In this document: one piece after another, positions 3,001 through 58,320 of the stretch
How the letters are laid out: every line of letters begins with the position of its first letter
How positions within the stretch are numbered: position 1 is the stretch's first letter
Position numbers and translations under genes: made by a program
Assembly: GCA_026545225.1 (NCBI GenBank)
Contig: CM048848.1
Location: 23,414,806-23,478,805 of the forward strand
Source: Cornus controversa
Lineage: Eukaryota; Streptophyta; Magnoliopsida; Cornales; Cornaceae
DNA length: 64,000 nt
Direction: 5' to 3'
The notes under the pieces: generated by a model
Told to the model about the DNA's origin: nothing
Database searches by the model: none
What the model saw: only the letters and a program-made list of their open reading frames with translations

Positions 3001-4428
3001 ATTCGTGATAAGAAAGGCTCAGATAATGTAGTCGCTGATCATTTGTCCCGTCTTATTGTTGATTCTATTAGTGACTCCCTTCCCATCTCTGATTATTTTC
3101 CTGATGAGCAACTTTTTACAATATCTCATGCCCCATGGTATGCTGATATTGTCAATTACATTGTGACTGGTCAAATCCCTTCCACTTGGTCTAAGCAAGA
3201 GAGAGAAAAATTCTTAGCTAAGGCTAAGGAATATTTTTGGGATGATCCCTACTTATTCAAGTATTGTCCAGATCAGATCATCCGTAGGTGTGTTCCCGAG
3301 GACGACCAAGAGTCTGTCATTTCCTTTTGTCATGATCAGCCATGTGGTGGCCATTTTAGCTCTAAAAGGACCGCTGCAAAAATCTTGCAGTCGGGATTTT
3401 ATTGGCCCACCCTTTTTAAGGACACTTATACCTACTGTCTCGCTTGTCCTAGATGTCAATTATTAGGTAAGATTACCAAGCGTAATGAGTGGCCCCAACA
3501 ATCAATTTTAGTTGTCGAAATATTTGATGTTTGGGGTATTGACTTCATGGGACCCTTTCCCTCCTCATTTGGGTATATCTATATTCTTCTTGCTGTTGAT
3601 TATGTGTCCAAATGGGTAGAAGCATTAGCCACTAAGACAGCCGACCATAGAGTTGTGGTGAATTTCTTGAAAGACTTAATTTTGCCTAGATTCGGTGTAC
3701 CTCGAGCCATAATTAGTGATAATGGTTCCCATTTTTGTAACAAAGTCTTTGCAAGCTTAATGTCTAAATATGAGATCACCCACAAAGTGGCCCTATCTTA
3801 TCACCCACAAACCAATGGTCAGGCTGAGGTATCCAATAGGGAGATCAAACATATCTTAGAAAAAACGGTTAACCCCACAAGGAAGGACTGGAGTCTCCGC
3901 CTCCAAGATGCTTTGTGGGCATATCGTACTGCTTATAAGACTCCTATAGGAATGTCTCCATATCGCTTAGTCTATGGCAAAGCATGTCACTTGCCTGTCG
4001 AACTCGAACACCGTGCTTATTGGGCTATCAAGGCCATGAATTTTAACTATGATAAAGCTGGAGAGCGTAGGTCACTTCAACTCGATGAGTTGGAGGAAAT
4101 CAGAAATGATGCCTACGAGAGTTCGAAGATTTATAAAGCTAAGACCAAATTGGAACATGACAAACAAATTCTGAGAAAAGATTTCTCCCCAGGCCAGAAG
4201 GTTCTTCTATATAACTCTCGTCTTGAATTGTTTCCTGGGAAGTTGAGGTCACGATGGTCTGGTCCATACTATGTCCACCAAGTTGCTAGTCATGGTGCTA
4301 TTGAGGTTCAAGATCCCAAAAATGGAAAGTTATTCAAAGTTAATGCTCAACGTATAAAGCCTTTTCTTGAGTTGGAGGCTCGTGAAATTGAAAATATTTT
4401 CCTTGTCGATCCAGTCTATCTCAATTGA
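1..4428 (+). CDS. E1 gag-pro-pol polyprotein, 5' partial
   Basis: One frame is open from the first base to a TGA at 4426-4428, about 1475 codons, with no break. It is cut at the N-terminus by the window edge, so no start can be given. Gag C-terminus: glutamine-rich, with the TTLRSGK motif near 466-483. Aspartic protease: [12 protein letters not shown] near 916-951. Reverse transcriptase: about 1690-2500, with FMDDFS at 2263-2280. RNase H: about 2690-3060, with MCDAS, EKEL, TDHAAL and ADHLSR. Integrase: HHCC zinc finger about 3330-3460; core with the acidic residues in GIDFMGPF (about 3538), ISDNG (about 3712) and AEVSNRE (about 3823); C-terminal SRWSGPY about 4249. The polyprotein would make the particle, copy the RNA and integrate the cDNA. 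All catalytic residues I can check are present, so this pol could be functional. Confidence 0.93.
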
Positions 4429-4743
4429 TCTTTTTGGGGTACTATCTCTTTTGCGTCTGGCTGAAGACGTTAAACTTAGCGCTCTTGGGAGGCAACCCTG
4501 CCGGTTGATTTTAGAGTTTCGTAGTTGCTGCTTAGTTTAGGATTTTTTGTAAACTCTATTTGGATATGTTTATATTCTATTTGGGGTACGGTCTTTGATT
4601 AATATGGTTCTAAATCATTTAGTCTATATTATTATGCATTACATATTTGTAGGGACTATACTTCTACCATACCAGAACAATTGAGGTAATTTGTTCCAAT
4701 ATTTTTCTATCTGTCTTCAGCAATACATTGTTACTATACTTTT

Positions 4744-4782
4744 AACACTAGGGACAGTGTTGTATTTTGTTTGGGGGTGGGG
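4744..4782 (+). other. Hairpin plus G-rich PPT-like module, E1 internal copy
   Basis: The stem AACACT/AGTGTT closes the loop AGGGAC (4744-4761), followed after a few bases by GTTTGGGGGTGGGG (4769-4782). E2, E3, E4 and E7 have ACATTG/CAATGT with AGGA or AGTA at the same place. A T-A pair in their stem is replaced here by C-G, so pairing is kept. The G-rich part matches this element's own PPT. Confidence 0.6.
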
Positions 4783-5381
4783 TAGATTTATCAAAATGCA
4801 TGCCTTTTTTTTGAAAATCTTTTGATCCAAAATAGAGTCATTTTTCAAAAAAAAAAAAAAAAAAATTTTTTTTGGCAGTATAGTACCTTTACAATGATGA
4901 TATTGGATTAACTTATGATCCGTTTCATGAAATCCAAGAGATGTTAATGTTTTGATCTAAATTGAACTTGTTATTAGGGTAATATAATGATAGACATTAT
5001 TGTATCACGGGCATTTAGAAGCAGAAATATTTTTTGCACAAAAGTCGAACTTTGCAATTCGAATTGAAAAGTGAGTAACCTCTTGATAATCTGGAAGATC
5101 TAATAGTAGAGACTTAGACCGTGTGAGCTTTCGTGCCTTTCACTTTTGTAGAGAGTTTTTATGCTAACTCCGAGTCAAAAGATGACTCAATTTTCTTGGA
5201 TACCGTATAAAAAATCGTTGGTAGTCTCATTATCTTTCATTTTGGTTGATCACTGAGAATGAAATCACTTCGAGTTAAGAGAAACATAGGCCTTGTAATT
5301 TATTTTTCTACTATCGTATCCTACCATAATCCTTCTTTCTGTTGTTAGTTTCTGAAAAGTGATACGGATGTTCTTGTGAAA

Positions 5382-5520
5382 AAGAAAAAAAAAAAAAAAA
5401 TCATCATATTTTTTTTTTTTTTTCAATGAAAAAAAAAAAAAAGAAAGAAAGAAAGAAAGAAAGATAGAGAAAAAAAAAAAAAAAAAAGAAGAAGAAGAAA
5501 AAGAAAAAAGAAATGAAGAA
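5382..5520 (+). repeat. A-rich and GAAA simple-sequence tract
   Basis: Runs of A, T and repeated GAAA/GAA units. A similar A-rich tract after TTCAATG lies at the same place in family B elements (about 37815-37855 in E5), so the position, not just the composition, is shared. Confidence 0.8.
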
Positions 5521-6160
5521 GACAAGTTTTCCCTTTGAGATATTTTGAAGACTCATCACTTCCAAAAATATTCACTTACAGCCCCATCCTAATCACTACC
5601 TGTAAGATTTATGGAAAGATATGATAGTGGGTAATAAGTAAGCAGGCGCTATGGTGGGTAACTCGACATTCTCCCAAAAGTGATCAACATTCCTATCATG
5701 AGACTTTTCTATTTATATGTATCGGTTTTTCATATTAGTATGTGAGCTTGCTTTTACTTTGGAAACAGAGTTTCTACTCACATACAACTGAGATAAACAG
5801 TTAGCCAAATCTCCGAGAGTTGTTCTTTTAGAGAGATATTTACCTGTGAGATTTGAAGTCAAAACGTCTTTTTCTTCTAGTGACTTGGGAATTACATTAC
5901 TTGAATTTGAGGATGGCTTTTTGTCGACTTCACACACATTCACTCTGCTTCTAGGTTACTTATGGATGATTTTTCCTTGATGTTTATTATTATAACACCC
6001 TAGTAGCTTGTTGTATATGAGGAACTTATCAATTCCATTTCTTATTTTTCATGTTTCATGGATATATAGGAGATTCTCTGAACAATAGGGGAAATTACTG
6101 CCTTAAAGCAACTCTTCTTTGTAATAGTTAGAAAGTTTGTGGGTACCTTCACTGCAAACC

Positions 6161-6235
6161 CTCACGAGGCTATAGCTCGTCCACTAGGGGTAACCTAGGG
6201 GTTTAAGGCCTTATTGCATATGGTAAATGCAATCG
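6161..6235 (+). other. Three-hairpin block upstream of the E1 PPT
   Basis: Three consecutive inverted repeats: ACGAG/CTCGT (6164-6180), CTAGG/CCTAG (6184-6198) and TTGCAT/ATGCAA (6214-6232). The family B element E5 has the same three stems at 38487-38554, with changes mainly in the loops. Function unknown; an RNA packaging or replication signal is possible. Confidence 0.55.
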
Positions 6236-6318
6236 AGAACAGCCTGCGAAAGTGGCACATCTTTAGTTAGGAGTTAAATAAAAGTAGCAGTTTTGTACAC
6301 TAATTTCTTTTGCTTGTA

Positions 6319-6357
6319 TTTGCTAGAGGACTAGCAAAAGCTCGTTTGGGGGTAATT
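6319..6357 (+). other. E1 PPT with upstream hairpin
   Basis: TTTGCTAG-AGGA-CTAGCAAA (6319-6338) is a perfect 8-bp stem with an AGGA loop. It precedes GTTTGGGGGTAATT, which ends directly at the LTR start TGATAAG. The G-run is the expected plus-strand primer for reverse transcription. Confidence 0.75.
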
Positions 6358-7609
6358 TGATAAGTGCACAAAACTTGCTATTTTATATCCTAAAATAAGT
6401 TCTTAATTCATATTTTATTTTATTTAAAGGTTTTTATCTTTGCATTTTATGTTTTATAGGGGTTGATTTCCAAAGAAGAAGAAAAGCAGCAAAAGAGGGC
6501 TAAAAAGGATATATAAAGCCAAAGATGAACATAAGAAGAATTGTAGGAGAGATGGTATTCTGTGCAATCTACTTCACAAGAGGTCTCAAGTTCAAAACTT
6601 TGCCAAATATTTTGTACACGGCCACGTCTGCAGTCCAAAATTGAAATTAAAGATATGGAAATCAAATTTTAGATATTCAAATTCAAAATTTTGTATTTTA
6701 AATTTTTGTTTTTGAATTTTGAATTTTGAATTTCAAATTTGTATTTTGAATTTTTGTATTTTAAATTTTTCCCACCTAAACCATTCCCCTCTAACTCTAT
6801 AAATAGGGGGTCTTAGGGGATGGTGAGGGGAGTTAGAAATTGTAGAGAAATTATAGGAAAAAATAGTGTATTTATTTTATTGATTCAATGATGAGTAGTA
6901 GTTTCATTTATATTTGTTTGTTTTTTATTAATATGCAAGCGTAAACATCCTTCTCAAGGGAGTGATGAAGCCACCATGGCTGAAGTATAGGTAAGTTGTT
7001 TTATTTTCTTGTCTACTTTTTCCTCCCAAGAGCATTCTTCTACTCTTCTATTCTGGATTTTATTTTCTAAAAGTAGAGGAAGGATTCTTCGTGTTTGCCA
7101 AATAATGGTAATTCGAAGAATGCCTACCTCTGTTTACCTAGCCAATGTGCATCAGATTAAGTAAAAGAATGTCTCTCTCATATATAATCAAGTCATTCTT
7201 TTTTATTCCATATTTTCCTTCATCTTTCCAAGTTCTAATTGGATTGGTGAAGTGTATTGGTTATTGGAGGAAAAACTAGATAAGAATATAAAAAAAAAAA
7301 CTTTATTTATATGGATCCATGGTGGTGAATTCTCTTTCCTTGAGATTTTTTCCATCATTTGATCTAAGACATTTAATATTAGTTTTTATTATTAAATAAA
7401 AAATCAGAATTTTATTTTTTTTAAATATTCATTTTTCATCTCAAGAGAATTAGGTTTTGAAGTTTAGACTTGTTATTGATTCTCACTTGAGAGTGGTTCG
7501 ACCCTGCTTACTACTATACAGTTTTTAGTAAAGTTTTTGCAGGTTTTATTATTTTTTTGTACGAAGTGTAGAAAAGCAACGACAAACATCCATTATTCTA
7601 CACTCGTCA
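6358..7609 (+). repeat. E1 3' LTR
   Basis: About 1252 bp, starting TGATAAGTGC right after the PPT and ending CACTCGTCA. It has a TATA box at 6798. An AT-rich degenerate repeat of AATTTTGAATTT-like units covers about 6655-6770. The matching 5' LTR is outside the window, so the end was set from the CA terminus and is slightly uncertain. Confidence 0.75.
6798..6806 (+). promoter_or_regulatory. TATA box of E1 LTR
   Basis: TATAAATAG lies 440 bp into the LTR in a C-rich context followed by GGGG, the normal arrangement for a U3 promoter in plant LTRs. Confidence 0.6.
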
Positions 7610-7721
7610 ATATGTTTACGATATTTTTGTGTTTTTGATGTATTGCAGGTCTTTTAGTAAAAGGAGCAAAATTTGAGGCTATTTGCAGCTGAAGAGAAAA
7701 GTCAGAAATTACAGCCAAGGC

Positions 7722-7836
7722 ATCTCGATCAATCGAGATGTTGATCTCGATCAATCGAGATCTTGATTGATCAAGATCCTATTTCGATTGATCGAAATCT
7801 CGATCAATCGAGATCCAATCTCGATTGATCGAGATT
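7722..7836 (+). promoter_or_regulatory. Six perfect inverted repeats in the E2 LTR
   Basis: Six adjoining units, each with 8-bp arms around a CA or TG centre: ATCTCGAT-CA-ATCGAGAT, ATCTTGAT-TG-ATCAAGAT, ATTTCGAT-TG-ATCGAAAT and orientation variants. When one arm changes, the other changes to match. The same units stand upstream of ORF3. I infer a regulatory or structural role; no binding protein is identified. Confidence 0.7.
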
Positions 7837-12329: not shown

Positions 12330-12590
12330 GCATCTCAATTGATCAAAATAATGCAGAGAGTATGCGAAATCCAAAGTCCCGAGAGGTAGTATTCTTCGAT
12401 AGCACTTCGATAGGTCCTCGATCGATCAAAAATAATAATTGATCGAAATGGGATTTTGATTGATCGAATTAAAGTCCTGATTGATCGAATTAAAGTCTCG
12501 ATTCATTGAAGAGATCTCGATTGATCGAAGTAGGATTTTGATTAATCAAAATCTCGATTGATCGAGATGCACATCTCGATCAATCGAGAT
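12330..12590 (+). promoter_or_regulatory. Inverted-repeat array upstream of ORF3 (E2)
   Basis: About ten full or partial units built on CGAT-CA-ATCG or its reverse CGAT-TG-ATCG. The last two are perfect 18-bp repeats with opposite centres, separated by GCAC, so 12551-12590 forms a 40-bp near-perfect palindrome. Equivalent arrays occur in E3, E4, E5, E6 and E7. Candidate enhancer or structured element. Confidence 0.7.
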
Positions 12591-12604: not shown

Positions 12605-12629
12605 CACGTGAGCCGAGTTCTTATTTAAA
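12605..12629 (+). promoter_or_regulatory. Candidate internal promoter: G-box and TATA-like box
   Basis: CACGTG (G-box) at 12605-12610 and TATTTAAA at 12622-12629, 32 bp after the repeat array. E7 has two CACGTG sites and TATTTAAA with the same spacing. E5 and E6 have a TATA-like box 34-35 bp after their arrays. Promoter function is inferred. Confidence 0.5.
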
Positions 12630-12863: not shown

Positions 12864-13259
12864 GTAAGTGATGCGTGGCTATCTTTTGCGTACTTTCTCA
12901 CTATTTTTGGTAGTTTTATGGCATAATAAACATAGACAGATGATGTTGGGTTGGAATGGTGCATTTGCGATATTCATAATGGGATTTCAGGGGTAGGAAT
13001 GCATGTATGGGTGAGATAATGCATTATTCTTGTTTCAAATGCTTACTGTACGGTTTGCAACTGCGGCACCTTCGTTTTAGTTGCATCCGCTTACGCTGCC
13101 TCTTTGAGAGCGAATTTTTGAATTCATGTGTCAGCACTATGGACTAGGACCTCATTTTCATTTTTATTCTTTTATTTCTATTCTTAGTTTAGCTTTCCTC
13201 TTATTTATTTTTTATTATTATTATTTTTTTATTTACGTAATTTTTGGAATAAAGTGCAG
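12864..13259 (+). other. Candidate intron in the ORF3 5' leader (E2)
   Basis: Donor GAG|GTAAGTG at 12861-12870 and acceptor GTGCAG|ACTG ending at 13259, after a T-rich stretch and 14 bases before the ATG. E7 has the same donor and acceptor (57707-57317), about 391 bp apart. Conservation between two copies supports a real leader intron, but no transcript evidence exists here. Confidence 0.5.
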
Positions 13260-13273
13260 ACTGTTCCGAGACT

Positions 13274-14497
13274 ATGGCGAGAGTGAAGAATGCCACTGGT
13301 TCTGTTCGAGACGTGCCCGGGAGAGCCTTCTGGTCTCGAAAGTTTCACCTGGAGCAGATATTTGACTTGAGAGAGTTCGAGACGCATCCGGATAGCTCGT
13401 GGGCTGTCGCCAAGCTTAGGAGGCGTCGCCTCGACCGATTGTGTGTGCCTCCCACTGATGTGGCACACGAGCGCTTGGTGCAGGCCTTTTACGAGCATAT
13501 GACCTACTCCTGCACCGCGCCGGACACTTTGGAGACAATGGTGGGTGGCACGACTATTACTATCACGCCGAGCTGGATTACGCAGATGTTCAGCATCCCT
13601 CACCAGCAGCCTCCAGATATGGTTGACCAGGACGGTCGACCGAATTACAGGGCCGAGCTGCCAGCAGACACGACGCTATTCTCCATCGTGATGGACATGT
13701 GTGGTGGGGCGTTTACCATGCCCAGTCACAACTGCACGTCCAAATCGATGTGCCCGAGTATATTGTGGTTCCTGGACACCGTTCTCATCAAGAACGCGTG
13801 TCCTCTGCAGCACGTGGCAGAGCGCAGGGGCGACCTCCTCCGTTGCCTTTACGCTTTCCACACGGGTACGTGATTTTCTGTCCCATCGCTGATATGGGGG
13901 CAGATGTTCAAGATCTGGGATGGCCTCATCAACAAGAGGATGCAGCGAGCAGTGAGTTGGCGGCTTCCCTTTCCTTTCCTCATCACCACTTTTCTGAGCC
14001 GTGCCAGTATACCGGTCAGTGATACTGACATTTAGTTGGCACCGCCCACCCGCTTCACATCTGCTCAGTGGGAGCGGGTGAGGCGACACTTAGAGCGACA
14101 AGACCACCAGGGTGATCCACCAGACGATGTAGATATGGATGCCCCGGTGGAGATGGATGAGGGAGAGCTTGCAGAGGGTAAGTCAGATGATGAGGAGATG
14201 GAGGAGGAGGAGATGGATATTGCAGCAAAGTGGCATGACATCTTAGCGACTGGCTATTCCTGCCTGGCAACTGACGTTGAGCGGCTCCAGCAGGGTTTTG
14301 AAGAGCACGTCCAGGTGACGCAGAGTCAGCTGGAGGGCATCAGATCAGACATTTCATCTCTGGCACAGGGCCAGAGGGCGATTTTAGACGAGTTTCGAGC
14401 CTTCCGGCAGGACCTGCAGTTCCTGTTCGCAGGTCGAGCTTCCACCTCCACTTCTACTCCCACAGAGCCACCACCACCACCACCCGCCCTCGAGTAG
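13274..14497 (+). pseudogene. E2 ORF3, plant transposon protein family (env-like position), disrupted
   Basis: Starts at ATG 13274 (MARVKN). The first ~240 codons match the domain found in the third ORF of Athila elements, with LCVPP near the start and a Trp-Phe-Leu-Asp block (WFLDTVL) near 13770. A hydrophobic stretch follows, then an acidic region (about 14150-14220), a likely coiled coil (about 14270-14420) and a proline tail. Two stops break it: TGA at 13871, where E7 has Trp, and TAG at 14033. Otherwise one frame runs through about 407 codons. Its function is unknown; 'env-like' refers to position only. I see no clear signal peptide. Confidence 0.8.
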
Positions 14498-15987: not shown

Positions 15988-16218
15988 CCAAATATATTAA
16001 GGCACATACCCCTTCAACTCACTAGCTTCCCTTTTTGAAATCATACTTCCAAACATGAATACATGACTTTTTTTTTTTTCAATTCTTTTTTTTTCATTGC
16101 TTTATTGGTTGTGCAATATCTTGATTTATTAAGCTTTCTGAAAGATCCATGTAGCAAGCTTTCAGTCAGTGACTCCCAAACCAGATGGTTTTAGGGCACT
16201 AGGCTTTAAGATACCCAC
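15988..16218 (-). mobile_element. Scrap of a family B element 3' region
   Basis: About 230 bp matching E3 17540-17775 and E4 22756-22985. It is joined on the left to E2 and on the right to the middle of an LTR (about 16218). The order is not that of an intact element, so it marks a deletion or recombination junction. Confidence 0.65.
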
Positions 16219-17124
16219 TATTGTGTAATAATCACTCTCATGATCACAGAAAAGAAGAGGGACGGGTTCAATAACAATAATTAAATATCTAAGACAAGAT
16301 AAGAAATCATTAAAACTGAATTTATAAGACTTTTATTGCTCAATTCTATAAGAAGAATCCTCTAAATTACACAATCTATGAATGAATACAAAAATCCCCA
16401 ATAATTAGAACAATCAAACCAGTGATGTTTAGTTAGGGCTCCATCAAAACCCTGGTGGCTGAACTAGCCGCTCATGATACGCCTTGTTCTCCAATGATTC
16501 TCCACTCCAAAAGCTCTTCAAAGCTGCTGCCAAGCCTCCCAATATAGCCCCAATTCGTCACTATTAATATCCAAGAGAATACATCAAAGTCCTAATCCAA
16601 TTAGGAATTAATTAGGTTTTCCCGCAGCACTAATCAGGTGGGTTTTTCCTACTGATGTTCGGTCCAACTTTTGACCCACTAGAAGTCCGACTCACAGAAT
16701 TTCCATGAAATACAAAAGTGTGCACAATCGAATTTCGTTCAACCAACACTGAAATTAACTCGATTTAATGCTCAAAAATAAGACTTCTAGTCCATTTTCC
16801 AAAATGGGATTAAGACTGTATTAAACGCAGATTTGGGCTTCAGGCCCGAAACCTTCTTAAGCAGCTATAATTCTCTTGGACCTCTTCCTTGTGCTGATTT
16901 GAGTTGAAATAAATGGTGGAATGGATCTCATTGATGTAGGCTTCATCTAACCATCTTGCATGTCATCTTTAAAAGCCCAAAATTACGGTTTTAACTGAAA
17001 TAATCATTAAGGCCTTGAAAATACAGAAAACACTAAAACGAAGTAAATAACAAAATAATCTATCACTAAGAGAATAAAATACATAAGTTAAGAGGCTAGA
17101 ATGCGTAACATTCAACGCCGATCA
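16219..17124 (-). repeat. E3 3' LTR, truncated
   Basis: About 906 bp of the family B LTR from its start (TGATCGGCG on the minus strand, at 17124). The terminal ~520 bp are missing, replaced by the fragment at 15988-16218. Confidence 0.8.
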
Positions 17125-17161
17125 CACCCCCAAACTTACATATTGCTAGTCTCTTAGCAAT
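17125..17161 (-). other. E3 PPT with upstream hairpin
   Basis: On the minus strand, ATTGCTA-AGAGAC-TAGCAAT (17161-17142) is followed by GTAAGTTTGGGGGTG directly at the LTR. E4 has loop AGGGAC. The stem is identical in all family B copies. Confidence 0.75.
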
Positions 17162-19618
17162 AGAATAAAACAAAACTAAAACAAAGAACTACTAAACACT
17201 AACTAAACTACCCAACTCCACTTTCGTGGGAGAAACGATTGCATTTAGCGTATGCAACAAGCCTTTGAACCCTTAGGTTCCCCTTAGTGGACGAGTATAG
17301 TCTCGTGAGGGTTTCCAGAAATGTTACCTACAAACATTCAAAATTCTATTCCAACATTAATTCAAGAAGAAGATTACAATATATAGTTACAAACTTGCAT
17401 TCAAGAATAATTTCAAACTTTCAAATTCCATAACTTAAATCAATGGCCCTCATGCATAATTCACATCAACATATCTCAAAATAATCAACTCTAGCTCCCT
17501 CGTGTAAAGTGAACTAGCAGTCATCTCATGTAGCATAACCAAGCTCTAAATATATTAAGGCACATACCCCTTCAACTCACTAGCTCCCCTTATTGAAATC
17601 ATACTTCCCAACATGCATACATGACTTTTTCATTTTTTTTCATCATTCCATTTTTTTTTTCATTGCTTTATTGGATGTGCAATGTCTTGATTTATTAAGC
17701 TTTCTGAAAGATCCATGTAGCAAGCTTTCAGTCAGTGACTCCTAAACCAGATGGCTTTAGGGCACTAGGCTTTAAGACACCCCGAAGACCTAATTACTCG
17801 AATGAGTCAGGCTACAAATCAAGACAACCAATGCTCATCTTTTCTCACCCTTTCACTTTTGACGTGAACACTCCATGCTTTCTGAGGCATAGAGGCCCGG
17901 TTGCTCATGAAAAAGATCAAATTGATTTGCTTATTCATCACATTCTTTTTTCTTTCTCTTTTTTTTCTTCTTTTTTTTCTTTTTCATTGAAGTCAAGTAA
18001 AACACATCATCGGTACTCATTCTCAAGAGATACTAATTAATATCAAGCATATGTAACTCAACAACTCAGAGCCAAAGTTTATACCCCACAAAATTATGCT
18101 AGTGTGTCTGTGCATGTAAGGGAACTAAAATCAATCACTCCAAAACATGTTATTGCAAACCATGATTAAAACCACATAATTCAAATCATAGTTTCCAAAA
18201 ATTTAAAACATATTAAAAAATTGCAAGTTATGCACCTACATAAGATATTGATCCCTTGAAAAATGTCAAAACATTCTATCTAAAAACAAAACAAAATAAA
18301 ATAAAAAACAAACTAAGAAAATAAAATAAACAAAAATCCTAAAACAAGAAGAATTTTACACAAATTTCCCCCATATGCAATAAAACACAAAAATAAGGCA
18401 TCACCTCACCCCCAAACTTAAACTGTACATTGTCCTCAATGTAATACCAATCAAAGCATAGAGAAGAGTAAGAACGATGTTACCATGATCATGGAGTAGT
18501 GGCGAGAAAATAGAGCACACCAATTGTATGAAGGCAATGCAAGCACACCCCCAAACTTGGATGTTACAACTTGTCAAAATAAACCACTATACCCCAAAGA
18601 CCAAGTGAAATAACATGGGTGAAAATAAATATGAAATTTAATTTTTTTTTTACTGAAAACAAGAAAAAAAAACAATATGAAAAATAAAATAAAGAAGAAA
18701 AAAAATTAAATTAAAAATACAAAAGATAGTTACTTCCAAAAAATCAAGGAGAATGTGGTGTTAGAACATCTAAGTCAAGGCCAGAATGGAGCACCAAAAT
18801 CAACCAACAAGTCCACAGTCAATGTGGAATGTCCTCCCCCAAACTTGTACTTCAAAACCCCTCAAAGAAACCCAACCAATTTTGCAAAAATAAACCACAC
18901 CTCCTTTGAAGAAGAACATGAGAAAATTGGAACTTCAATGAGAATTTGATATGAACAAGTTGTATTTAATGTTGATGATAATGATCATGGACACTCTTCA
19001 ATCAATGTAATCACCAAGTAGAAATTTTAGAATGTTGGTTGATGTAGGAGAGTCAAAAGAGTGCATCAAAGTTCCAAATTTTCGAGTGGGAGCATGTAGG
19101 GCTTGAGAAGAGGGATAAAAAACATAAAATCCAAACAGCTGGGCCTAGATGGGCTGGGGCAATCGATCCCCCTAGGGCTGGGCGATCGATCGCCCAGCTG
19201 GTTGTCCTCCCAAGCTGAGAAAAATTGGGGGCGATCGATCCCCCTTCAAATGGGCGATCGATCCCCCTGCTGGGTGCTCTTTGGGCCTCTATCGCCCAAG
19301 GTCGACTGGGAATGCAATTTTTGGAGTCTCTATCGCCCAAGGTCGACCGAGAGCTCGTTTTTTCACCCATCTTGAGTCCAAATACCTCGGTACACCTCTT
19401 GGCATCCTTCGGAAGTAACTCATACATCAAAAACTCAAAGAAAAAACATTAAAACGCACCTAATAATGGAAGAAAAATAAAGAAAAACATAAACTAAAAA
19501 TAAAAATAAAAAATAAAAATAAAAATAAAAGAAAACTAAAGAAATTAAAGGATAGAAATACATACAAATCCTACAATTTAACGTCCGTAGGTGACGGTCA
19601 TCGACTTCAATTGAAAGT
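17162..19618 (-). other. E3 3' untranslated region, ORF3 deleted
   Basis: No coding sequence. Compared with E5, ORF3 is missing: the sequence passes from an AAGTTTGGGGG site in the ORF3 leader (about 18836) to the post-ORF3 region near 18740. It holds further AAGTTTGGGGG copies (18407 and about 18545), the ACATTG-AGGA-CAATGT hairpin (18442-18427), A/T-rich tracts and the three-hairpin block (about 17230-17320), whose second stem is broken here by two mismatches. The inverted-repeat array is listed separately. Confidence 0.7.
19156..19267 (-). promoter_or_regulatory. Inverted-repeat array (E3)
   Basis: Four units on the core CGAT-CG-ATCG with G/C flanks, including the perfect 20-bp palindrome ctgggcgatcgatcgcccag (19178-19197). 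Same order and spacing in E4. ORF3 has been lost, and no good TATA box follows at the spacing seen in E5. Confidence 0.65.
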
Positions 19619-20894
19619 TCACCCAATGCCACATCTTTTGAGCAGATTTAATTTCGTCCCTCCTATATGATCCTCACCTCCTTGTGTCGAACTCAAAGTG
19701 ACCGAAATGGTCTCATTGGCTTTGAAAAACACATCTCTCTGCCTTGACGGAAGATGTTTCAATTTTACCCATGGAGGAGACTCTAATGATGCCATCAGAA
19801 GAGTGCTAGAAAGAATAGGCAATGGCTCAATCAGAATCCTCCAAGGTGGAGTATTTTTCATGGCCACTACATCAAGTAAATCATTCACCCCCTCAATGGA
19901 CTTCTCAACATTATGAGATAGAGCAACCGGATCAACTTCTTCAACATAATCCTCAAAGCCATCCATGAAGAATTAATCACTCTCATCTAGAGGATGTTGA
20001 ATGACATTAAAAGTATTCAAGTTCACCTTAGGCTCATGAGAAATTTCAACATTTGGATTCTTTGTCATCTCTTCTTCATCAAGCTTCTTCTCCCCCACCT
20101 TGTTGTCACTTATTTCTCCACTTCTAAGAGTGGTGATGGCTTGAAATTGTTCATGGTGTGGGTTGCTCAAAGAAGAAATATTATCAAGGACATGAACCCC
20201 TCATGGGTTGGCAACTGATTGGCTTGGTAGTGTCCCCTCTTCTCTTCTACTCACAGCATTGACAAGTTGTCCAAACTGTGCTTCCAGTTTGGCAATCGAT
20301 TGAGAGTGAGAATGTACCAGTTGAACAGTGGATTGAACTGTTGCTGCAGTAGCTTGCACTATCTCTACAATAGAGTGAAGCTTCTCGAGTTTTTCTAGGA
20401 CAATTGTCATCTTGTCCTCAATGGCTGAATACCTCTGTGCCATAGGAACTTGTTCTTGATATAATTGTGAAGGCACATAGTTCTGAGGTTGAAAAGTGGG
20501 CTGAATTGCTGCCCTTTGCTCTTGTGGAAGATCGACAAACTGCCCAATTGAAGGGCAATTATTCACATGATGCATAGGACTCGAGGAAAAGGCACATGAC
20601 TCAAATATAAGAGGGTATGAAGATGGATTAGGAACTTGACCAGCTGCCATGAGTCGCACCACTCTCTGTGACACAACATCCACAATGGTAGACATATCAT
20701 CTGCAGAACCAATCGTAAAAATATCATCTGTCCTCCTTGTATTGAATGGTCTTCTTGAACGAGATGGAGATACATGTTGCAAATAATTGTCATTGAGATT
20801 CTCGAACAAAGTCCTTGCTTCATCTTCATTTTTTAACATAAAAGTACCCCCACTTGATGCATCCACCATCTGTCTGTTACTTTCTGTCAGTCCC
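19619..20894 (-). pseudogene. E3 gag, 3' part, disrupted
   Basis: Continuation of the gag interrupted by E4. It includes the region after ESNRQMVDA, a zinc-knuckle remnant whose second Cys is Ser (CAFSSSPMHHVNNC, about 20570), TTLRSGE, and then a direct jump past the protease to a pre-RT segment (PWRILIEPLP) and a short unrelated tail. Stops replace sense codons of E4 near 20205 and 19975. Not functional. The jump is the same as in E4, so it predates both insertions. Confidence 0.8.
20890..20894. repeat. Target-site duplication, left copy
   Basis: GTCCC immediately before the E4 3' LTR end. It matches 28393-28397 after the other LTR; the two halves of E3 gag rejoin across it. Confidence 0.9.
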
Positions 20895-22328
20895 TGATTC
20901 GTGTGTGAGTGTGACTCAAAAAGTATATCAATTAAAATTTCCACACTTCACAATAGAACGAATTCCTTGCAGAATAGGGCTATCGAAAGGAAGGGATGTC
21001 GAACCTCAAGGACTGTGGTCTGACTGAGTTGAATTGTTAGGACTAATTCTAATTAAATTTAAAAGAGATAAGTTGCTGATTTTTATATCTAAATTATCTA
21101 ATGAAGTAATTGAACAACAGCAAGAAAAACTAAGGAGTGTAGAGAATATAAGATAAGTCTAGGGTAATTGATTTCACCACTAACTTCACAATCAATGGTC
21201 AATTGAACTAACTATGGGGCAACATATCATGCATAAGTGGTGTCGGTGGCTGCAAGCTCACCTCCATCCGTCAAGAAGATAACATATGATTAAGGCTAAG
21301 TCATGGACTATCTTCGATTGGCATGGGCCATCTGCCTAACTACTCTACTCTAGGGTGCAGTATGGTTCATCTTCTCTAGGCATAATCCATCAAAGCTTTA
21401 ATGATATATTCAATGAAAACCATTGTGTAATAATCACTCTCATGATCACAGAAAACAAGAGGGATGAGTTCAATAACAACAATCAAGTATCTAAGATAAG
21501 ATAAGAAATCATTGAAACTGAATTTATATGACTTTTATTACTCAATTCTATAAGAAGAATCCTCTAAATTACACAATCTATGAATGAATACAAAATTCCC
21601 CAATAATTAGAACAATCAAACCAGTGATGTTTAGTTAGGGCTCCATCAAAACCCTGGTGGCTGAACTAGCCGCTCATGATACGCCTCGTTCTCCAATGAT
21701 TCTCTATTCCAAAAGCCCTTCAAAGCTGCTGCCAAGCCTCCTCAATACAACCCTAATTTGTCACTTTAAATAGCCAAGAGAATACATCAAAGTCCTAATC
21801 CAATTAGGAATTAATTAGGTTTTCCCGCAGCACTAATCAGGTGGGTTTTTCCTGCTGACTTCGGCCCAACTTTTTACCCACTAGAAGTCCGATTCACGGA
21901 ATTTCCGTGAAATACAAAAGTGTGCAGAATCGAATTTCGTTCAACCCTTCTTGAGAATTATGTCAATTTGAGGCTTGGAAATAAGACTTCTGGTCCGTTT
22001 TCCAAAACGGGATTAAGACTGTATTATGCGCAGATTTGGGCTTCAGGCCCGAAACCTTCTTAAGCAGTTGTAATTCTCTTGAACCTCTTTCTTGGGCTGA
22101 ATCGAGTTAAATTATGGAATTCAATGGATCCCTTTGATACAGGCTTCATCTAACCATCTTGCATGTTATCTTTAAAAGCCCAAAATCATAGTTTTAACTG
22201 AAATAATCATTAAGGCCCTGAAAATACAGAAAACACTAAAACAAAGTAAAATAACAAAATAATCTATCACTAAGAGAATAAAATATATAAGTTAAGAGGC
22301 TAGAATGTGTAACATTCAACGCCTATCA
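20895..22328 (-). repeat. E4 3' LTR
   Basis: 1434 bp, TGATAGGCG to CGAATCA on the minus strand, directly after the PPT. Nearly identical to 26959-28392. Confidence 0.93.
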
Positions 22329-22365: not shown

Positions 22366-24799
22366 AGAATAAAACAAAACTAAAACAAAGAAACTACTAA
22401 ACACTAACTAAACTACCCAACTCCACTTTCGTGGGAGAAACGATTGCATTTAGCATATGCAACAAGCCTTTAAACCCCTAGGTTCCCCCTAGTGGACGAG
22501 TATAGTCTCGTGAGGGTTTCCAGAAATGTTACCCACAAACATTCAAAATTCTGTTTTAACATTAATTCAAGAAGAAGATTACAATACATAGTTACAAACT
22601 TGCATTCAAGAATAATTTCAAACTTTCAAATTCTATAATTCAAACCAATGGTCCCCATACATAATTCACATCAACATATCTCAAAATAATCAACTGTAGT
22701 CCCCTCGTGTAAAGTGAACTAGCAATCATCTTATGTAGCATAACAAAGCTCTGAATATATTAAGGCACATACCCCTTCAACTCACTAGCTCCCCTTATTG
22801 AAATCATACTTCCCATCATGCATACATGACTTTTTCATTTTTTTTTTCATCATTCTTTTTTTCATTGCTTTATTGGTTGTGCAATGTCTTGATCTATTAA
22901 GCTTTCTGAAAGATCCATGTAGCAAGCTTTCAGTCAGTGGCTCCCAAACCAGATGGCTTTAGGGCACTAGGCTTTAAGATACCCTGAAGACCTAATTACT
23001 CGAATCAGTCAGGCTACAAATCAAGACAACCAATGCTCATCTTTTCTCACCCTTTCACTTTTGACGCGAACACTCCGTGCTTCCTGAGGCATAGAGGCCC
23101 GGTTACTCATGAAAAAGATCAAATTGATTTGCTTATTCATCACTTTTTTTTTCACTTCTTTTCTTTCTTTTTTTTCATTGAAGTCAAGTATAACACATCA
23201 TCGGTACTCATTCTCAAGAGATACTAACTAATATCAAGCATATGTAACTCAATAACTCAAAACCAAAGTTTATACCCCATAAAATTATGCTAGTGTGTCT
23301 GTGCATGTAAGAGAACTAAAATCAATCACTCCAAACATGTTATTGCAAACCATGATTAAAACCACATAATTCAAACCATAGTTTCCAAAAATTTAAAACC
23401 TACTCAAAAATTGCTAGTTAAGCACCTACATAAGGTATTAATCCCTTGAATAATGTCAAAACATTCTATCTAAAAACAAAACAAAAGAAAATAAAAAATA
23501 AGCAAAGAAAAAGAAAATAAAATAAAATCCTAATACAAGAAGAATTTCACAAATTTTTCCCCATATGCAATAAGCACAAAAATAAGCATCGCCTCACCCC
23601 CAAACTTAAACTGTACATTGTCCTCAATGTACACCCAATTGAAGCATAGAGAAGAGTAAGAACGATGTTACCAAGAATCCGGAGTAGTGGCCAGAAAATA
23701 GAGCAAACCAATAGTATGAAGGCAATGCAAGCACACCCCCAAACTTGGATGTTACAACCTGTCAAAATAAACCACTATACCCCAAAGACCAAGTGAAATA
23801 ATATGGGTGAAAATAAATATGAAATAAATTTTTTTTTACTAAAGAAAGAAAGAAAGAAAAACAATATGAAAAAATAAAATAAAGAAAAAAAGAAAAAAAT
23901 AAAAATACAAAAAAAATAGTTACCTCCGAAAAAATCAAGGAGAAGGTGGTGTCGAAGCATCTAGGTCATGGCCGGAATGTTGCATCAAAATCAACCAACT
24001 AGCCCACAGTTAATGTGCAATGTCCTCCCCCAAACTTGTAGCACAAAACCTCTCAAAGAGATCCAACCAATTTTTCAAACAAAGTCTACTTCCTTGTGAA
24101 GAAGAAACTTGAGAAAATTGATCATTTAATGAGGATGGAGAAAAATAGATTGGAATAGATGATGATGGTGATGAATGATGATGATCAAGTAGTGTTATGA
24201 AAGATTTTTAGAGTGTATTTTGATGTTGGAGAGGTACAAAAAGTCACCAAAGTGATGTATTTTCAAGTGGGAGCATATAAGGCATCAAGAGGGAGCAAAA
24301 CTAGTAAAATAGAGCAGATTGGGCCTTCAGGGGCTGGGGCGATCGATCCCCCTAGGGCTGGGCGATCGATCGCCCAGCTGGTTGCCTCCTGTCTTGGCCA
24401 AATAATGGGGGCGATCGATCCCCCTTCAAAGGGGCGATCGATCCCCCCTGCTGGAGCCTGTTGAGTCTCTATCGCCAAGGGTCGACCGAGAAGGGTATTT
24501 TTGGAGGGTCCATCGCCCAAGGTCAACCGAGACCTCTCTTTTTTACTTGTTTTGAGTCCAAATACCCCGACATACTTCCCGGAATCCCTCAGAAGCAACT
24601 TAAGACATCAAAGACTCAAGAAAAACACATTAAAACGCAACTAATAATGGAAGAAAAATAAAGAAAAACATAAACTAAAAATAATAAAATAAAATAAAAA
24701 TAAAAATAAAAGAAAACTAAGGAAATTAAAGGATAGAAATACATACTAATCCTACAATTTAACGTCCGTAGGAGACGGTCATCGACTTCAATTGAAAGT
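22366..24799 (-). other. E4 3' untranslated region, ORF3 deleted
   Basis: No coding sequence. It carries the three-hairpin block (about 22430-22520), AAGTTTGGGGG copies at 23595-23607, about 23729 and about 24020, the hairpin TGTACATTG-AGGA-CAATGTACA (about 23633-23612; nine paired bases), A/T tracts and four inverted repeats. ORF3 is absent, as in E3. Confidence 0.7.
24336..24447 (-). promoter_or_regulatory. Inverted-repeat array (E4)
   Basis: Four units: ggggcgatcgatcccc, the 20-bp palindrome at 24358-24377, gggggcgatcgatccccc (24407-24424) and a fourth at 24431-24446. Core CGAT-CG-ATCG. Kept although pol and ORF3 are lost. Confidence 0.68.
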
Positions 24800-28392: not shown

Positions 28393-28397
28393 GTCCC
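28393..28397. repeat. Target-site duplication, right copy
   Basis: GTCCC, matching 20890-20894. E3 gag continues directly after it. Confidence 0.9.
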
Positions 28398-35241: not shown

Positions 35242-35353
35242 GGGGGGATCGATCACCCCAGAGGAGGGGGATTGATCGCCCCACAATTTTCCAAGAGAAG
35301 ACCCACCAGTAGGTGGGCGATCGATCGCCCACCCTAGGGGGGATCGATTGCCC
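35242..35353 (+). promoter_or_regulatory. Inverted-repeat array upstream of ORF3 (E5)
   Basis: Four units on CGAT-CG-ATCG, the third (35312-35333) a perfect 22-bp palindrome with GGTGGG/CCCACC flanks. The array ends 34 bp before the TATA box. Confidence 0.68.
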
Positions 35354-35385: not shown

Positions 35386-35395
35386 CTATATAAAG
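35386..35395 (+). promoter_or_regulatory. TATA box of candidate ORF3 promoter (E5)
   Basis: CTATATAAAG, a near-consensus plant TATA box, deep inside the element and far from either LTR. The ORF3 ATG lies about 410 bp downstream. Confidence 0.55.
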
Positions 35396-35801
35396 ACTCC
35401 TCTAATTTTAAAGCTACTACTTGCATCCTAAACCTCTTTGAGCTCCAATTCAAGTCCTACTTCAACCGGGAAATTAATTTCTTCAATTGGTGATTATTAA
35501 ACAAGAATTCAACACTGATCATCATCATCATCAACATCAAAACCGGATCAAGAATCACTAGTTCTCAAAGGAAGCTCTCACTTTTTCAAGTTCAACATCA
35601 AAGTAAGTGAAGTTTTTCTTTGGTGAAATTGTTCAAATCTTTTTGAGGGCTTTTGAAGACCAAGTTTGGGGGATCAATTTGGTGCATTTACTTGTTCAAT
35701 TTGGGTGGAAAAATTTCCGGAAAGAGGAGGTTGAAGGTTACAAAAGAATTGTGCACACCAAGTGTTCGATTTAATTCCTCAACCACACTTTTTCTACTTC
35801 T

Positions 35802-37024
35802 ATGGCACCTAAGAGAGCAAGTCACCAAGGTGCTTCAAGTTCACGTAATCCTCGCCGAGCGAGGCATGATCCAACCACAGGTTCTTCACGATCTCGCCGA
35901 GAAGGTATTTAAGAGAGATGGCATCCAAGGGCTTTGAACTTTGAAACTACTTTTGACATAGCTGAACTCTATGGTATGTTTCCTGAGACACGATGGGGAT
36001 TTCTGACATCTGTCGTCATTGGTCAGCATTCATTTTTGTTCCACTCTCGTCTACTATCTACCCGAGGCTTGTCAAGATATTTTATCAGAACTTAATGCCG
36101 ACACCTGATGAGCGGGTTGTGCTTACTTCTTCAGTAGATGGAACAATAGTTTGAGTGGATATGTCATCCATTGCCATTGCCATGGGTTGTCCTCATGAGT
36201 GCCCGGATGATTTATCTCATATCTATACTCCTCTACCCGACGAGTTGTCAGTGGGTAATTTGGTTGCACCTTTATGTGCTAATCAATTTTTCAGGCCGAA
36301 AAGGAATGCAGCTTCCAAGTCTTCAATGCCAAATCATTTATGGTTCCTTGACGCTGTTCTACTCAAGAATGTATGTCCAATTGGACATAAAACCAAGAGA
36401 CGTCAAGAGTTCCTCAGCTCCTTATATGCTATACATTTTGGGCATTGGCTGTCATTCCCACAGATTGTCTGGGGCCAGATGGAGAAATTCTATTTTAAGG
36501 TTGTGGCCAAGGCACCAGATAGTGCAAGTGACTGAGAGTTTCCATTCCCAACTATCATTCATCAGTTGCTTGTGGCACAGGGGTATGCAGTCCATGAGGA
36601 CGAGCTTGCCTTTCCACGTGATCTTCATTATGGCACACATGACTGGAATTTGAGCCGATCTCATATGCACCAGAGAGTCATAGCGGCGCCTGGTGAAGTA
36701 TCTCGGTTGGCCCAGGGAGGAGAACATATAGATATACCACCACCGGTGGAAGATCATGAGGAGATGGAAGCAGAGGAAGAGGAGGTGCATGCACAGGCTG
36801 GTGGGCATGATTATCAATATTTAGAGGGGCAGATTGTTGGGTTGACAGCCTAGTTTGGCACCCTACAAACAGAGGTATCCACATAGTTTGGAGCAATGAG
36901 GACAGAGATGGCGGATCACTTTCGTGACACTCGCCAAGAACAACTAGAGATGAGGAGGATGCTGCGTGCACTGATGCGCCAGGCAAACTTGGATCCGGAT
37001 GCTCAGTTACCACCACATCCTTGA
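35802..37024 (+). pseudogene. E5 ORF3, plant transposon protein family, disrupted
   Basis: Likely ATG 35802 (MAPKRASH). The frame changes near 36020 and stops occur near 35910, 36150, 36530, 36850 and 36885. The domain is homologous to E2 and E7 ORF3: LWFLDAVLLKNVCP, RRQEFLSSLYAIHFG and FPQIVWGQM align with their WFLDTVLLKNACP and SLIWGQM blocks. An acidic stretch (about 36750-36790) and a probable coiled coil follow. Function unknown. Confidence 0.8.
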
Positions 37025-53819: not shown

Positions 53820-54153
53820 CTTCGATTAATCGAAGAAGTGAGAAATTTTGTTGATTAATAGAAGTATCATCTTTCATTAATCAAAGAAATGAATCATTTT
53901 TTCACTAGAAAATCCGAGTGTTTCGATACTTATTCCAATACATCTTCGATTAATCCTCTAACTTTGTTTAATTGAAGTTGCACTTTCGATATATGGAGCT
54001 TTTATTAATCGAAGCATCACATATTTGATTAATTGAAGAACTAAATTAAATTTTTTTATCTGCAAAACTAGTATGTTTTGATAGATGCTTCAATACTTCG
54101 TCGATTAATCATCAAACTTTGATTAATAGAAGGCCCTCATTCGATTAATTGAA
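53820..54153 (+). promoter_or_regulatory. Inverted-repeat array (E6)
   Basis: Begins with the perfect CTTCGATTAATCGAAG (53820-53835), followed by about eight weaker units on TTCGATTAATCGAA, spaced about 30-50 bp. Core CGAT-TA-ATCG. The last unit (54140-54153) lies 35 bp before a TATA-like ATTTAAAT at 54188. Confidence 0.6.
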
Positions 54154-54183: not shown

Positions 54184-54556
54184 ATACATTTAAATTCAGC
54201 TTCCCTTATCCTCATTTCTTTCCCTCTCACGCACAAGCTCTCTCTCTTTGTCGAAAGCATCCCCAAGCCTCATATCCATCATTTTTCTTCTTCTTCCTTC
54301 TCCATCATCATAATCATCATCAGTATTTCGAACAAGAAGTGTTTTCAGAGTTGTAAAGAAGCTTGGAAGTTCTAATTTATGGGTTGGGCTGACATTGTGC
54401 TTGTGTTTGGTTTTGTGGAGAACTTGGTGGATTTTTAGGGAGGTTGAATTAAGTTTGTTTAGTTTTTGGTTGAGTTGGTGTTGTAGCTTCAAGATAGAGG
54501 TAGTGATGGTATAGGCCACACTAGGGTTTAATTTTGGTCTATAGAGAGAGACACAT
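54184..54556 (+). other. E6 TATA-like box and leader, ORF3 lost
   Basis: TATACATTTAAAT at 54184-54195, a CT-rich leader with TCATCA repeats, then about 200 bases with no recognisable ORF3 before the E7 LTR end at 54557. Confidence 0.4.
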
Positions 54557-56078: not shown

Positions 56079-57302
56079 CTACTCGAGGGCGGGTGGTGGT
56101 GGTGGTGGCTTGGTGAGAGCAGAAGTGGAGGTGGAGGCTCGACCTGCGAACAGGAACTGCAGGTCCTGCCGGAAGGCTCAGAACTCGTCTAAGATCGCTC
56201 TCTGGCCCTGTGCCAGAGAAGAAATGTCCGTCCGAATACCTGCCAACTGACTCTGCGTCACCTGGACGTGCTCGTCAAAACCCTGCTGGAGCCGCTCTAC
56301 GTCAGTCGCCAGGCAGGAATAGCCCGTCGCTAAGATATCATGCCGCTCTGCAGCGACATCCATCTCCTCCTCCTCCATCTCCTCGTCCTCTGACTCAGCC
56401 TCTGCTGGCTCGCCCTCATCCGCCTCCACCGGGGCATCCATATCTACATCGTCTGGTGGATCACCCTGGTGGTCCTGTCGCTCTAAGTGTCGCCTCACCC
56501 GCTCCCACTGAGCAGATGTGAAGCGGGTGGGCGGTGCCAACCGGACGTCAGTCTGACTGATCGGTATACTGGCACTGCTGAGAAAAGCGGCGATCAGGAA
56601 AGGGAAGGGAAGCCACCAACTCGCTGCTCTCCTCTTCCTCTTGTTGACGAGGCCATCCCAGACTTTGTGCATCTGCCCCCAGATCAGCGATGGGACAGAA
56701 AACCAAGCGCCCGTGTGGAAAGCATAGAGGCAACGGAGGAGGTCGCCCCTGCGCTCTGCCACGTGCTGCAGCGGACACGCATTCTTGAGGAGAACGGTGT
56801 CCAGGAACCAATATCTGCTCGGGCACATCGATTTGGACGTGCAGTTGTGACTGGACGTGGTAAACACCCCGTCACACATGTCCATCACGATCGAGAACAG
56901 CGTCGTGTCTGCTGGGAGCGCGACACTGTAAAGTGGTTGACCGCCCGGGCCAACCATGTCCGGTGGCTGCTGGTGAGGGATGCCGAGCATATGCGCAATC
57001 CGGCTCGGCGTAATCGTGATCGTGACAGTGCCCATGACCGTCTCTAGTGTATCCGGCGCTGTGCAGGAGTAGGTCATGCGCTCATAGAAGACCTGCACTA
57101 AGCGCTCGTGTGCCACGTCAGTAGGAGGCACACATAGCCGGTCGAGGCGACGCCTCCTGAGCTCGGCCACAGTCCACGCGGTGTCGGGACGCGTCTCAAA
57201 TGCGGCTAAGTCAAAAATATGCTCCGGGTGGAACTTTCGAGACCGGAAGGCTCGCCCGGGCACGTCGCGAACAGAACCGGCGGCGTTCTTCACCCTCGCC
57301 AT
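56079..57302 (-). pseudogene. E7 ORF3, plant transposon protein family, one stop
   Basis: ATG 57302 (MARVKN), 407 codons in one frame to TAG at 56079-56081, interrupted only by TGA at about 56178, where E2 has Arg (CGA). N-terminal domain as in E2. A hydrophobic segment WWLPFPFLIAAFL lies at about 56630-56590; an acidic region, coiled coil and proline tail follow. An upstream in-frame stretch exists, but it would read through the likely splice acceptor, so the ATG at 57302 is preferred. GC-rich compared with neighbours. Function unknown. Confidence 0.82.
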
Positions 57303-57316: not shown

Positions 57317-57707
57317 CTGCACTTGATTCCAAAAATTACGTAAATAAAAGATAAATAAGAAGAAAGCTAAACTATGAATAAACTAAAAGAATAATAAAAA
57401 AATAAAAATGAAGTCCTAGTCCATGGCACTGACAAGAATGCAAAAAGTCGCTCTCGAAGAGGCAATGTGAACGGATGCAACTGAAACGAAGGTGCCGCGG
57501 TTACACACCATACACTAAGCGTTTGAAATGAAGAGAATGCCAAATCTCACTCCTACATGAATTCCTACCCCCCGAAACCCACAAAATCTCGTTACAGATA
57601 TCGCAATCGCACCCATCCACCCCAACATTATCTAACTATGTTTATTACGCCGTAAAACTATCAAAAATGGCGAGAGAGTAAACAAAAAGTAGCCATGCAT
57701 CACTTAC
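57317..57707 (-). other. Candidate intron in the ORF3 leader (E7)
   Basis: GAG|GTAAGTG donor at 57710-57701 and GTGCAG|ACTG acceptor ending at 57317: the same exon ends and almost the same length as in E2. Confidence 0.5.
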
Positions 57708-57919: not shown

Positions 57920-57957
57920 TTTAAATAGATTTTCGGCTCACGTGCAGGCTCCACGTG
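57920..57957 (-). promoter_or_regulatory. Candidate internal promoter (E7)
   Basis: TATTTAAA at 57927-57920, two CACGTG boxes at 57944-57939 and 57957-57952, and the inverted-repeat array starting just upstream (about 57959). Same order as in E2. Confidence 0.5.
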
Positions 57958-57958
57958 C

Positions 57959-58320
57959 ATCTCGATTGATCGAGATGTGCATTTCGATCAATCTAGATTT
58001 CGATTGATCGAAATCTTGCTTCGATCAATCGAAATTGTCTCTTCGATCAATCGAAAATTCCTTCACTGAATCACCCTTTTACTTCGATCAATCGAACATT
58101 TAATTCATTCAATCGAAATTTTATTTCGATCAATCGAAATCCCATTTCGATCAATTAAAATTTTCGATGGATCGAAGACCTATCGAAGTGTAATCGAAGA
58201 ATACTACCTCTCGGGACTTTGGACTTGGCAAATCTCTGCAATTTTTCGATCAATCGAAACTGAGATCTCGATCAATCGAAATCTCGATTGATCGAGATCC
58301 TGGTTTCGATCAATCAAAAT
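57959..58320 (-). promoter_or_regulatory. Inverted-repeat array upstream of ORF3 (E7)
   Basis: The longest array here, about 15 units of CGATCAATCG or its reverse, some perfect (ATCTCGATTGATCGAGAT, ATTTCGATTGATCGAAAT). Flanks vary between ATCT and ATTT types with matching partners. Confidence 0.7.

Follow-up and report, generated by a model that had tools for sequence, protein, structure and literature searches.

In a 64-kb stretch of the Cornus controversa genome (CM048848.1), retrotransposons designated E1 to E7 include several that carry clusters of short palindromes, in some of them just ahead of a candidate promoter for the third gene, ORF3. The question raised by this locus is what these clusters do at the sites that they occupy. 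The stretch, which is the whole of the DNA analysed here and is referred to as the window, comes from a single genome and is plant-like DNA crowded with nested Ty3/gypsy elements.

Element anatomy was obtained by self-comparison and by tblastn with separate pieces, and domains were assigned by Pfam. The RT, RNase H and integrase families were found in E1 and E7; the core of the E7 integrase fell below the Pfam cut-off and its zinc-binding domain lay above it. E1 shows the gypsy order of protease, RT, RNase H and integrase, plus weak gag matches. E7 contains gag, RT, RNase H, integrase and an open ORF3, with no Pfam match to a protease. E2 contains gag, a protease (Pfam match), the end of integrase and a broken ORF3. 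By tblastn, E5 retains gag, RT/RNase H and a broken ORF3, and no integrase was detectable in it. The RT-RNase H regions of E5 and E7 are 76% identical and their ORF3 products 30%. E6 contains RT, RNase H and integrase, is interrupted mid-element, and is truncated before any ORF3 by E7, shortly after its TATA-like box. E4 sits within E3 (16217-30665), and the E4 LTRs are 98.9% identical in self-comparison; in both elements tblastn found gag-type sequence only, with RT, integrase and ORF3 all absent, and both retain a palindrome array. No tblastn match to ORF3 was found in E1, E3 or E4.

Several features suggest that these elements belong to the Athila lineage. First, gag, protease, RT, RNase H and integrase are present in gypsy order. 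Second, ORF3 lies between pol and the 3′ LTR (open in E7, relics in E2 and E5). Third, the PBS-like motif TGGCGCCGTTGCCGGGG, probably complementary to tRNA-Asp, is found at 8967, at 9033 and, on the minus strand, at 26937. The tRNA-Asp assignment follows in part a figure legend on Diaspora and Calypso (PMC1142308). The motif is doubled behind the E2 5′ LTR, where its copies at 8967 and 9033 are 66 bp apart. At the 3′ end of E7 (54540-54870), the 3′ untranslated region runs directly into the last ~300 bp of the LTR; the U3 and PPT of this element seem to have been deleted.

The E7 ORF3 product weakly matches PF20167 (Putative plant transposon protein), below the family cut-off. A search of a protein database with it gave 4309 candidates and none at E≤0.001, and the best match among PDB sequences (E of 0.15) was taken as noise. 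One long helix was predicted at its C-terminus, within an otherwise unusable model (mean pLDDT 40.5, 3 sequences). In viral contigs, patterns derived from E7 ORF3, from the end of E7 RNase H plus integrase, and from a 3-row RT alignment matched 7, 5 and 35 stretches, respectively, and no tblastn relative was found among them.

Palindrome arrays and the matching of their arms

The initial annotation had listed six arrays, all of which were recovered, and had overlooked a seventh at 7722-7835, here called the U3 array after its probable location. The seven arrays are as follows.

7722..7835, strand not assigned: array of 6 palindromes of the ATCTCGATCAATCGAGAT type
12330..12590, plus strand: E2 array of 10 units, intact next to the candidate promoter and decayed distally
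19156..19267, minus strand: E3 array of 4 units, spacing 23-49-23, in an element with gag-type coding only
24336..24447, minus strand: E4 array of 4 units, spacing 23-49-23, in an element with gag-type coding only
35242..35353, plus strand: E5 array of 4 units, spacing 23-49-23
53820..54153, plus strand: E6 array of 9 mostly decayed TTCGATTAATCGAA-type units
57959..58320, minus strand: E7 array of 14 units

These palindrome arrays are real. The exact core CGATNNATCG occurs 22 times in the window compared to 0.23 expected (sd 0.42), and the largest count among 100 shuffles was 1. All 22 exact copies lie within the seven arrays and none elsewhere in the window; with at most one mismatch allowed, 38 cores lie in the arrays and 7 outside. 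Dyads with all seven arm pairs number 19 in the arrays (1407 bp) and 50 outside, where six have at least two G/C per arm and four of these six are one LTR palindrome. The core types described initially (CA/TG, TA and CG) were confirmed, with one GG unit in E7 in addition, and E1, described as lacking an array, has no core with 0 or 1 mismatch in 4428-7610.

Units were counted as non-overlapping sites with at most two mismatches of the eight core positions, which gave 51 in total. Units of the U3, E2 and E7 arrays mostly lie 21-22 or 16-17 bp apart, those of E3, E4 and E5 follow the 23-49-23 pattern, and those of E6 are irregularly spaced. Dyad counts in each array were compared with 300 dinucleotide shuffles of that array. 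For dyads with at least six of seven pairs, the observed numbers (shuffle mean, largest) were 10 (1.0, 5) for U3, 4 (1.1, 6) for E2, 3 (0.3, 3) for E3, 5 (0.4, 3) for E4, 4 (0.3, 4) for E5, 2 (1.35, 6) for E6 and 14 (1.9, 8) for E7. For perfect dyads, the observed numbers (largest among shuffles) were 6 (2) for U3, 4 (1) for E2, 1 (1) each for E3, E4 and E5, 1 (2) for E6 and 5 (2) for E7. U3, E4 and E7 were above every shuffle by the first measure, U3, E2 and E7 by the second, and E6 by neither. The single perfect dyad of E6 compares with a shuffle mean of 0.08, and some shuffles reach 2; the E6 dyads are near chance. The view that E6 is as regular as the other arrays was dropped, as was the view that all E3-E5 units are perfect palindromes, since one of the four units in each element is perfect.

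The CpG o/e is 1.55-2.36 in the U3, E2, E6 and E7 arrays compared to 0.55 for the whole window, the motif itself having two CpGs; it is just 0.57-0.78 in the E3-E5 arrays. Another palindrome, CCGTTTTCCAAAACGG, is present in each of the four E3/E4 LTRs (16800, 22003, 28067 and 30341). Its variant at 16800 is CCATTTTCCAAAATGG, in which both arms are altered in a matched way, a change that two-strand CpG decay could also explain.

Flanks that always pair, as the initial annotation had it, proved too strong a description, as the outer C-G core pair is broken in 9 of the 12 E3-E5 units; this mispairing is much alike among the related copies. Arm matching was assessed by permutation, in which units were chosen by core alone and right flanks were permuted within or across arrays. 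In the U3, E2 and E7 arrays, the 18 exact units gave p=0.023 within arrays and 0.020 across, the 24 units with at most one mismatch gave p=0.046 within and 0.16 across, and the 35 units with at most two mismatches, some of them overlapping, gave p=0.0007 within and 0.003 across. The 38 units with at most one mismatch in all arrays gave p=0.003 within and 0.00005 across; these are not independent events, because the across-family signal represents three families and E3-E5 are related. For single arrays, p was 0.41 in E6 and 0.29 in E5. The covariation of arms that had been proposed was found as matching modestly above permutation overall and not in E6 or E5 taken alone.

Comparison of homologous copies addresses change since divergence. 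Between the E2 and E7 arrays, scoring covered the 65 pairs present in one or both copies, at nine centres, one of which is spurious (in pol). Forty-six pairs were unchanged, 17 had changed on one side, one was compensated and one had changed on both sides without pairing. The single compensated change is T-A for C-G, as two-strand CpG decay would yield. For E3/E4, E3/E5 and E4/E5 (8 pairs), one-sided changes numbered 1, 0 and 1, unpaired two-sided changes 1, 1 and 0, and compensated changes 0 throughout. Just beyond the eight pairs scored, the ninth pair of unit 3 differs between E3/E4 and E5 by a matched exchange of C-G for G-C, which favours the matched change of arms first described. Dyad symmetry seems to belong to the consensus of each family and to erode in individual copies.

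A dyad-pair pattern matched 12 loci in viral contigs, with G+C of 0.31-0.68. Two of these (L001 and L012) are overlapping simple-repeat matches and most others have two to three dyads. Three TCGATNNATCG-type dyads, 22-23 bp apart, are found at L002:2687-2741 and L008:6407-6461 and are perhaps operators. A search of genome contigs with a 16-base palindrome gave 108 stretches; the 80 listed were all bacterial or archaeal with one match each, and the result was taken as chance.

Candidate ORF3 promoters and the array near the E2 5′ LTR

The following features lie on the ORF3 side of the internal arrays.

12622..12629, plus strand: TATTTAAA at offset 31 from the array end, a candidate TATA box for ORF3 of E2
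12864..13259, plus strand: candidate leader intron of E2 ORF3 (GAG/GTAAGT ... GTGCAG/A), 396 bp
13274..14395, plus strand: relic of E2 ORF3 with a broken frame, 83% identical to E7 ORF3 at the amino-acid level
35387..35394, plus strand: TATATAAA at offset 33, a candidate TATA box for ORF3 of E5
35603..35608, plus strand: GTAAGT, candidate leader splice donor of E5
35802..36676, plus strand: E5 ORF3 relic, candidate ATG at 35802
54188..54195, plus strand: ATTTAAAT at offset 34, a weak TATA-like box in E6
57920..57927, minus strand: TATTTAAA at offset 31, a candidate TATA box for ORF3 of E7
57317..57707, minus strand: candidate leader intron of E7 ORF3 (GAG/GTAAGT ... GTGCAG/A), 391 bp
56178..57302, minus strand: E7 ORF3, an open frame that runs for 374 aa from its ATG (57302)

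All six internal arrays had been placed between pol and ORF3. This position fails for E3 and E4, which are without both genes; E5 is without a detectable integrase, and any ORF3 of E6 is absent from the window. The sole ORF3-less element with pol that is available as a control is E1.

Offsets from array to box were measured in the element sense, from the array ends as initially annotated. Of the six internal arrays, four have a TATA-like box 31-34 bp past their end (E2, E7, E5 and, in a weaker form, E6), and no clear TATA box was found near the arrays of E3 and E4. As background, TATATAAA or TATTTAAA starts at an offset of 25-40 from 0.21% of window positions, or from 0.24% with ATTTAAAT added. 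Because E2 and E7 are relatives and the TATA-like words were picked after inspection, the boxes count as two families and a weaker third; the exact box is found in two independent families only. The CT fraction over the 81 bp past the boxes is 0.73 in E2, 0.68 in E7, 0.60 in E5 and 0.73 in E6 compared to a window mean of 0.50 (sd 0.09).

In E2 and E7, the array is followed in order by the TATA-like box, a leader, a conserved donor, a candidate intron of ~390 bp and the ORF3 ATG (13274 in E2). CACGTG is present at 12605-12610 in E2 and at both 57939-57944 and 57952-57957 in E7. When the two elements are aligned, GCCTGCACGTGAGCCGA, TATTTAAAC and GAGGTAAGTGATGC are conserved and the box block is identical, whereas all five bases between GCCTGCACGTGAGCCGA and TATTTAAAC differ and the leader is down to 61-74% identity. 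The donor GAGGTAAGT has two copies over both window strands, at the E2 and E7 leaders only. The shorter GTAAGT has 30 copies on both strands, and no convincing splice acceptor was found in the E5 leader downstream of GTAAGT at 35603. The E5 relic matches E7 ORF3 by tblastn over 35999-36676 (E=1.5e-32).

The seventh array is probably in the U3 of the E2 5′ LTR, because it ends ~1.1 kb before the PBS-like motif at 8967 and because 8659-8961 matches the 3′ end of E7. All six of its units are perfect over seven arm pairs. The LTR ends at ~8961, directly before the PBS-like motif; its start would be at ~7613, an estimate only, since the mate LTR is absent. The nearest TA-rich stretch after the array is ~130 bp off, as opposed to the 31-34 bp of the internal arrays, and the exact core is found in no other LTR of the window. 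In alignments scored without a control, the U3 array gave 112 inverted and 83 direct against the E2 internal array, and 87 inverted and 80 direct against the E7 array. An element that is indifferent to orientation and an inverted duplication would both fit these scores, which are proof of neither.

Functional and neutral explanations

On balance, we think it probable that the arrays are cis-elements that bind a dimer and serve an internal promoter of ORF3, the same elements being used in an LTR. A dimeric and probably host-encoded transcription factor would recognise the CGATNNATCG-like dyads, and the arrays would activate, from upstream, an internal promoter from which a separate, spliced ORF3 (env-like) mRNA would be produced. 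As the same sites appear to be present in the LTR U3 of at least one element, one factor could drive both the genomic and the ORF3 transcripts. The initial annotation had proposed selection for dyad symmetry, with either a dimeric DNA-binding protein or RNA hairpins as its cause. Symmetry at the level of families and a constant centre were found, and the protein half of that proposal is suggested by the positions of the arrays, being strengthened by the overlooked LTR array and by the 31-34 bp distance to the box.

Several observations count against an ORF3 promoter. E3 and E4 retain arrays with neither an ORF3 nor a clear TATA box, which a pure ORF3-promoter function does not predict unless both are recent derivatives. 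The CpG o/e of the E3-E5 arrays is low, the gap after the U3 array is ~130 bp, decay is mostly uncompensated and arm matching in E6 is non-significant. In addition, a review (PMC7264820) has env-like genes transcribed from the 5′ LTR promoter.

A functionless origin of the symmetry, which we consider unlikely, would begin with a palindromic seed that multiplied into a tandem repeat where sequence changes fast, its arms becoming matched through template switching (quasipalindrome correction) in reverse transcription or through common descent of unit subtypes. Such an origin is in line with the recurring spacings of 21-22 and 16-17 bp in U3, E2 and E7, with the difference in array length between E2 and E7 through loss or gain of units, and with the 17:1 excess of one-sided changes after divergence. 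Symmetric C-to-T decay at CpG can mimic matched change, as in the one compensated pair. In about half of the surveyed Retand elements, the region from pol to the 3′ LTR contains tandem repeats (PMC11963269). However, families as distant as E5 and E7, as well as E6, share the core despite different flanks, and a neutral origin leaves unexplained why the arrays are sited by a TATA-like box and again near an LTR end. Furthermore, the most constant bases are the central ones, which are not positions that hairpin correction would fix.

Less probable still is that the arrays act as RNA, either as hairpins in the genomic transcript for packaging, export or translation, or as a source of siRNAs that silence the element. 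Folding of the sense RNA of five arrays gave z of -11.6 (E7), -6.2 (E2), -5.9 (E6), -6.2 (E5) and -8.9 (U3, plus strand) against dinucleotide shuffles, but strong folding is inevitable for runs of self-complementary units. A packaging or export signal would be expected to persist without ORF3, as the arrays of E3 and E4 do, and in maize Sireviruses small RNAs are in excess on palindrome clusters (Bousios 2016, as cited in PMC10760457). Compensation between homologous copies is, however, rare, and RNA leaves the 31-34 bp distance to the TATA-like box unexplained. The most constant pair is the T.A beside the 2-bp centre, present in 51/51 units (themselves selected at no more than two of eight core mismatches), whereas an RNA loop would leave these bases free. 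The 2-bp centre itself is self-complementary in 9/9 E6 units and 11/12 E3-E5 units and in only 2/30 units of U3, E2 and E7. Since a hairpin loop or cruciform would leave the central bases unpaired, their constancy favours recognition of double-stranded DNA, as an argument rather than a test.

Finally, it is very improbable that the ORF3 product, for which a long C-terminal helix is predicted and which is not a proven envelope, itself binds CGATNNATCG dyads in U3 and in its own promoter as a shared operator and so sets the balance between genomic and ORF3 transcription in the manner of a retroviral trans-regulator. Co-evolution of arrays and ORF3 would then be expected, and the absence of both from E1 and the family-specific flanks agree with it.

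Known systems and implications

The arrays had been regarded as undescribed. Their kind is already known from Sireviruses (PMC2829016); for Athila, no description of palindrome arrays before ORF3 was found in the open-licence full-text literature, as far as its available text extends. Sireviruses (Ty1/copia) are described in PMC2829016 with palindromic RMs at two places, upstream of ENV and, within the LTR, upstream of the TATA box. Among 13 RM-bearing Sireviruses, linker copies are present in all nine with ENV and in none of the four without, and six further ENV-bearing Sireviruses have no RMs. The same paper ties the RMs to CpG islands and proposes that they support an internal ENV promoter, none having been conclusively identified. 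The RM core is CGG-CCG except in Tnd-1, an RM of sequence ACAATCGATTGT, with an ATCGAT centre.

Compared to the Sirevirus RMs, the arrays described here show several likenesses and differences. First, a palindrome cluster lies upstream of an ENV-type gene in E2, E7 and E5. Second, the high CpG o/e of the U3, E2, E6 and E7 arrays is comparable to that of Sirevirus repeats at CpG islands. The cluster at 7722-7835, ~130 bp before a TA-rich stretch and probably within an LTR of estimated start, may correspond to the Sirevirus clusters upstream of the LTR TATA box. In contrast, the host elements are Ty3/gypsy, with integrase after RNase H, and not Ty1/copia; the core is CGATNNATCG and not CGG-CCG, Tnd-1 being the published exception; and a TATA-like box (E2, E7 and E5) and a candidate leader intron (E2 and E7) follow the array here. 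The arrays would work like Sirevirus RMs yet stand outside that set, with the wrong superfamily and the wrong core.

Other plant systems share parts of this layout. For Athila6A of Arabidopsis, an ENV ORF promoter has been named and start sites, ORFs and an intron have been characterised (PMC4977677). Both cases concern an Athila element with an internal ENV promoter region, start sites and an intron, which here are candidates predicted from sequence signals; unlike here, the available passages on Athila6A mention no palindrome array at the ENV promoter. Grande gene23, which lies past pol and before the 3′ LTR in a plant Ty3/gypsy element, has its own promoter, as proposed here for ORF3 (cited in PMC7264820 and PMC11963269); unlike here, that promoter is antisense, and the available passages mention no palindrome array. 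SIRC of Arabidopsis resemble the arrays as short repeats split by diverse DNA, some of them palindromic, with similar sequences in ATHILA2 and ATHILA6A (PMC10342631). They are, however, defined by genome-wide direct repeats, ~57% are without a palindrome, and the accessible part of that paper states no location before ORF3.

If the arrays do serve an internal promoter of ORF3, plant LTR retrotransposons with env-like genes from two unrelated superfamilies would have reached the same layout, with arrays in U3 and before ENV, and this would point to a common regulatory need of env-like genes. The signature of an array, 31-34 bp, a TATA-like box, a leader intron and ORF3 could then be used for finding ORF3 promoters in plants. 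Such a result would open the question of how and when the long-debated env-like genes are expressed, and it would bear on why elements retain palindromes that are able to feed the siRNA silencing of their host.
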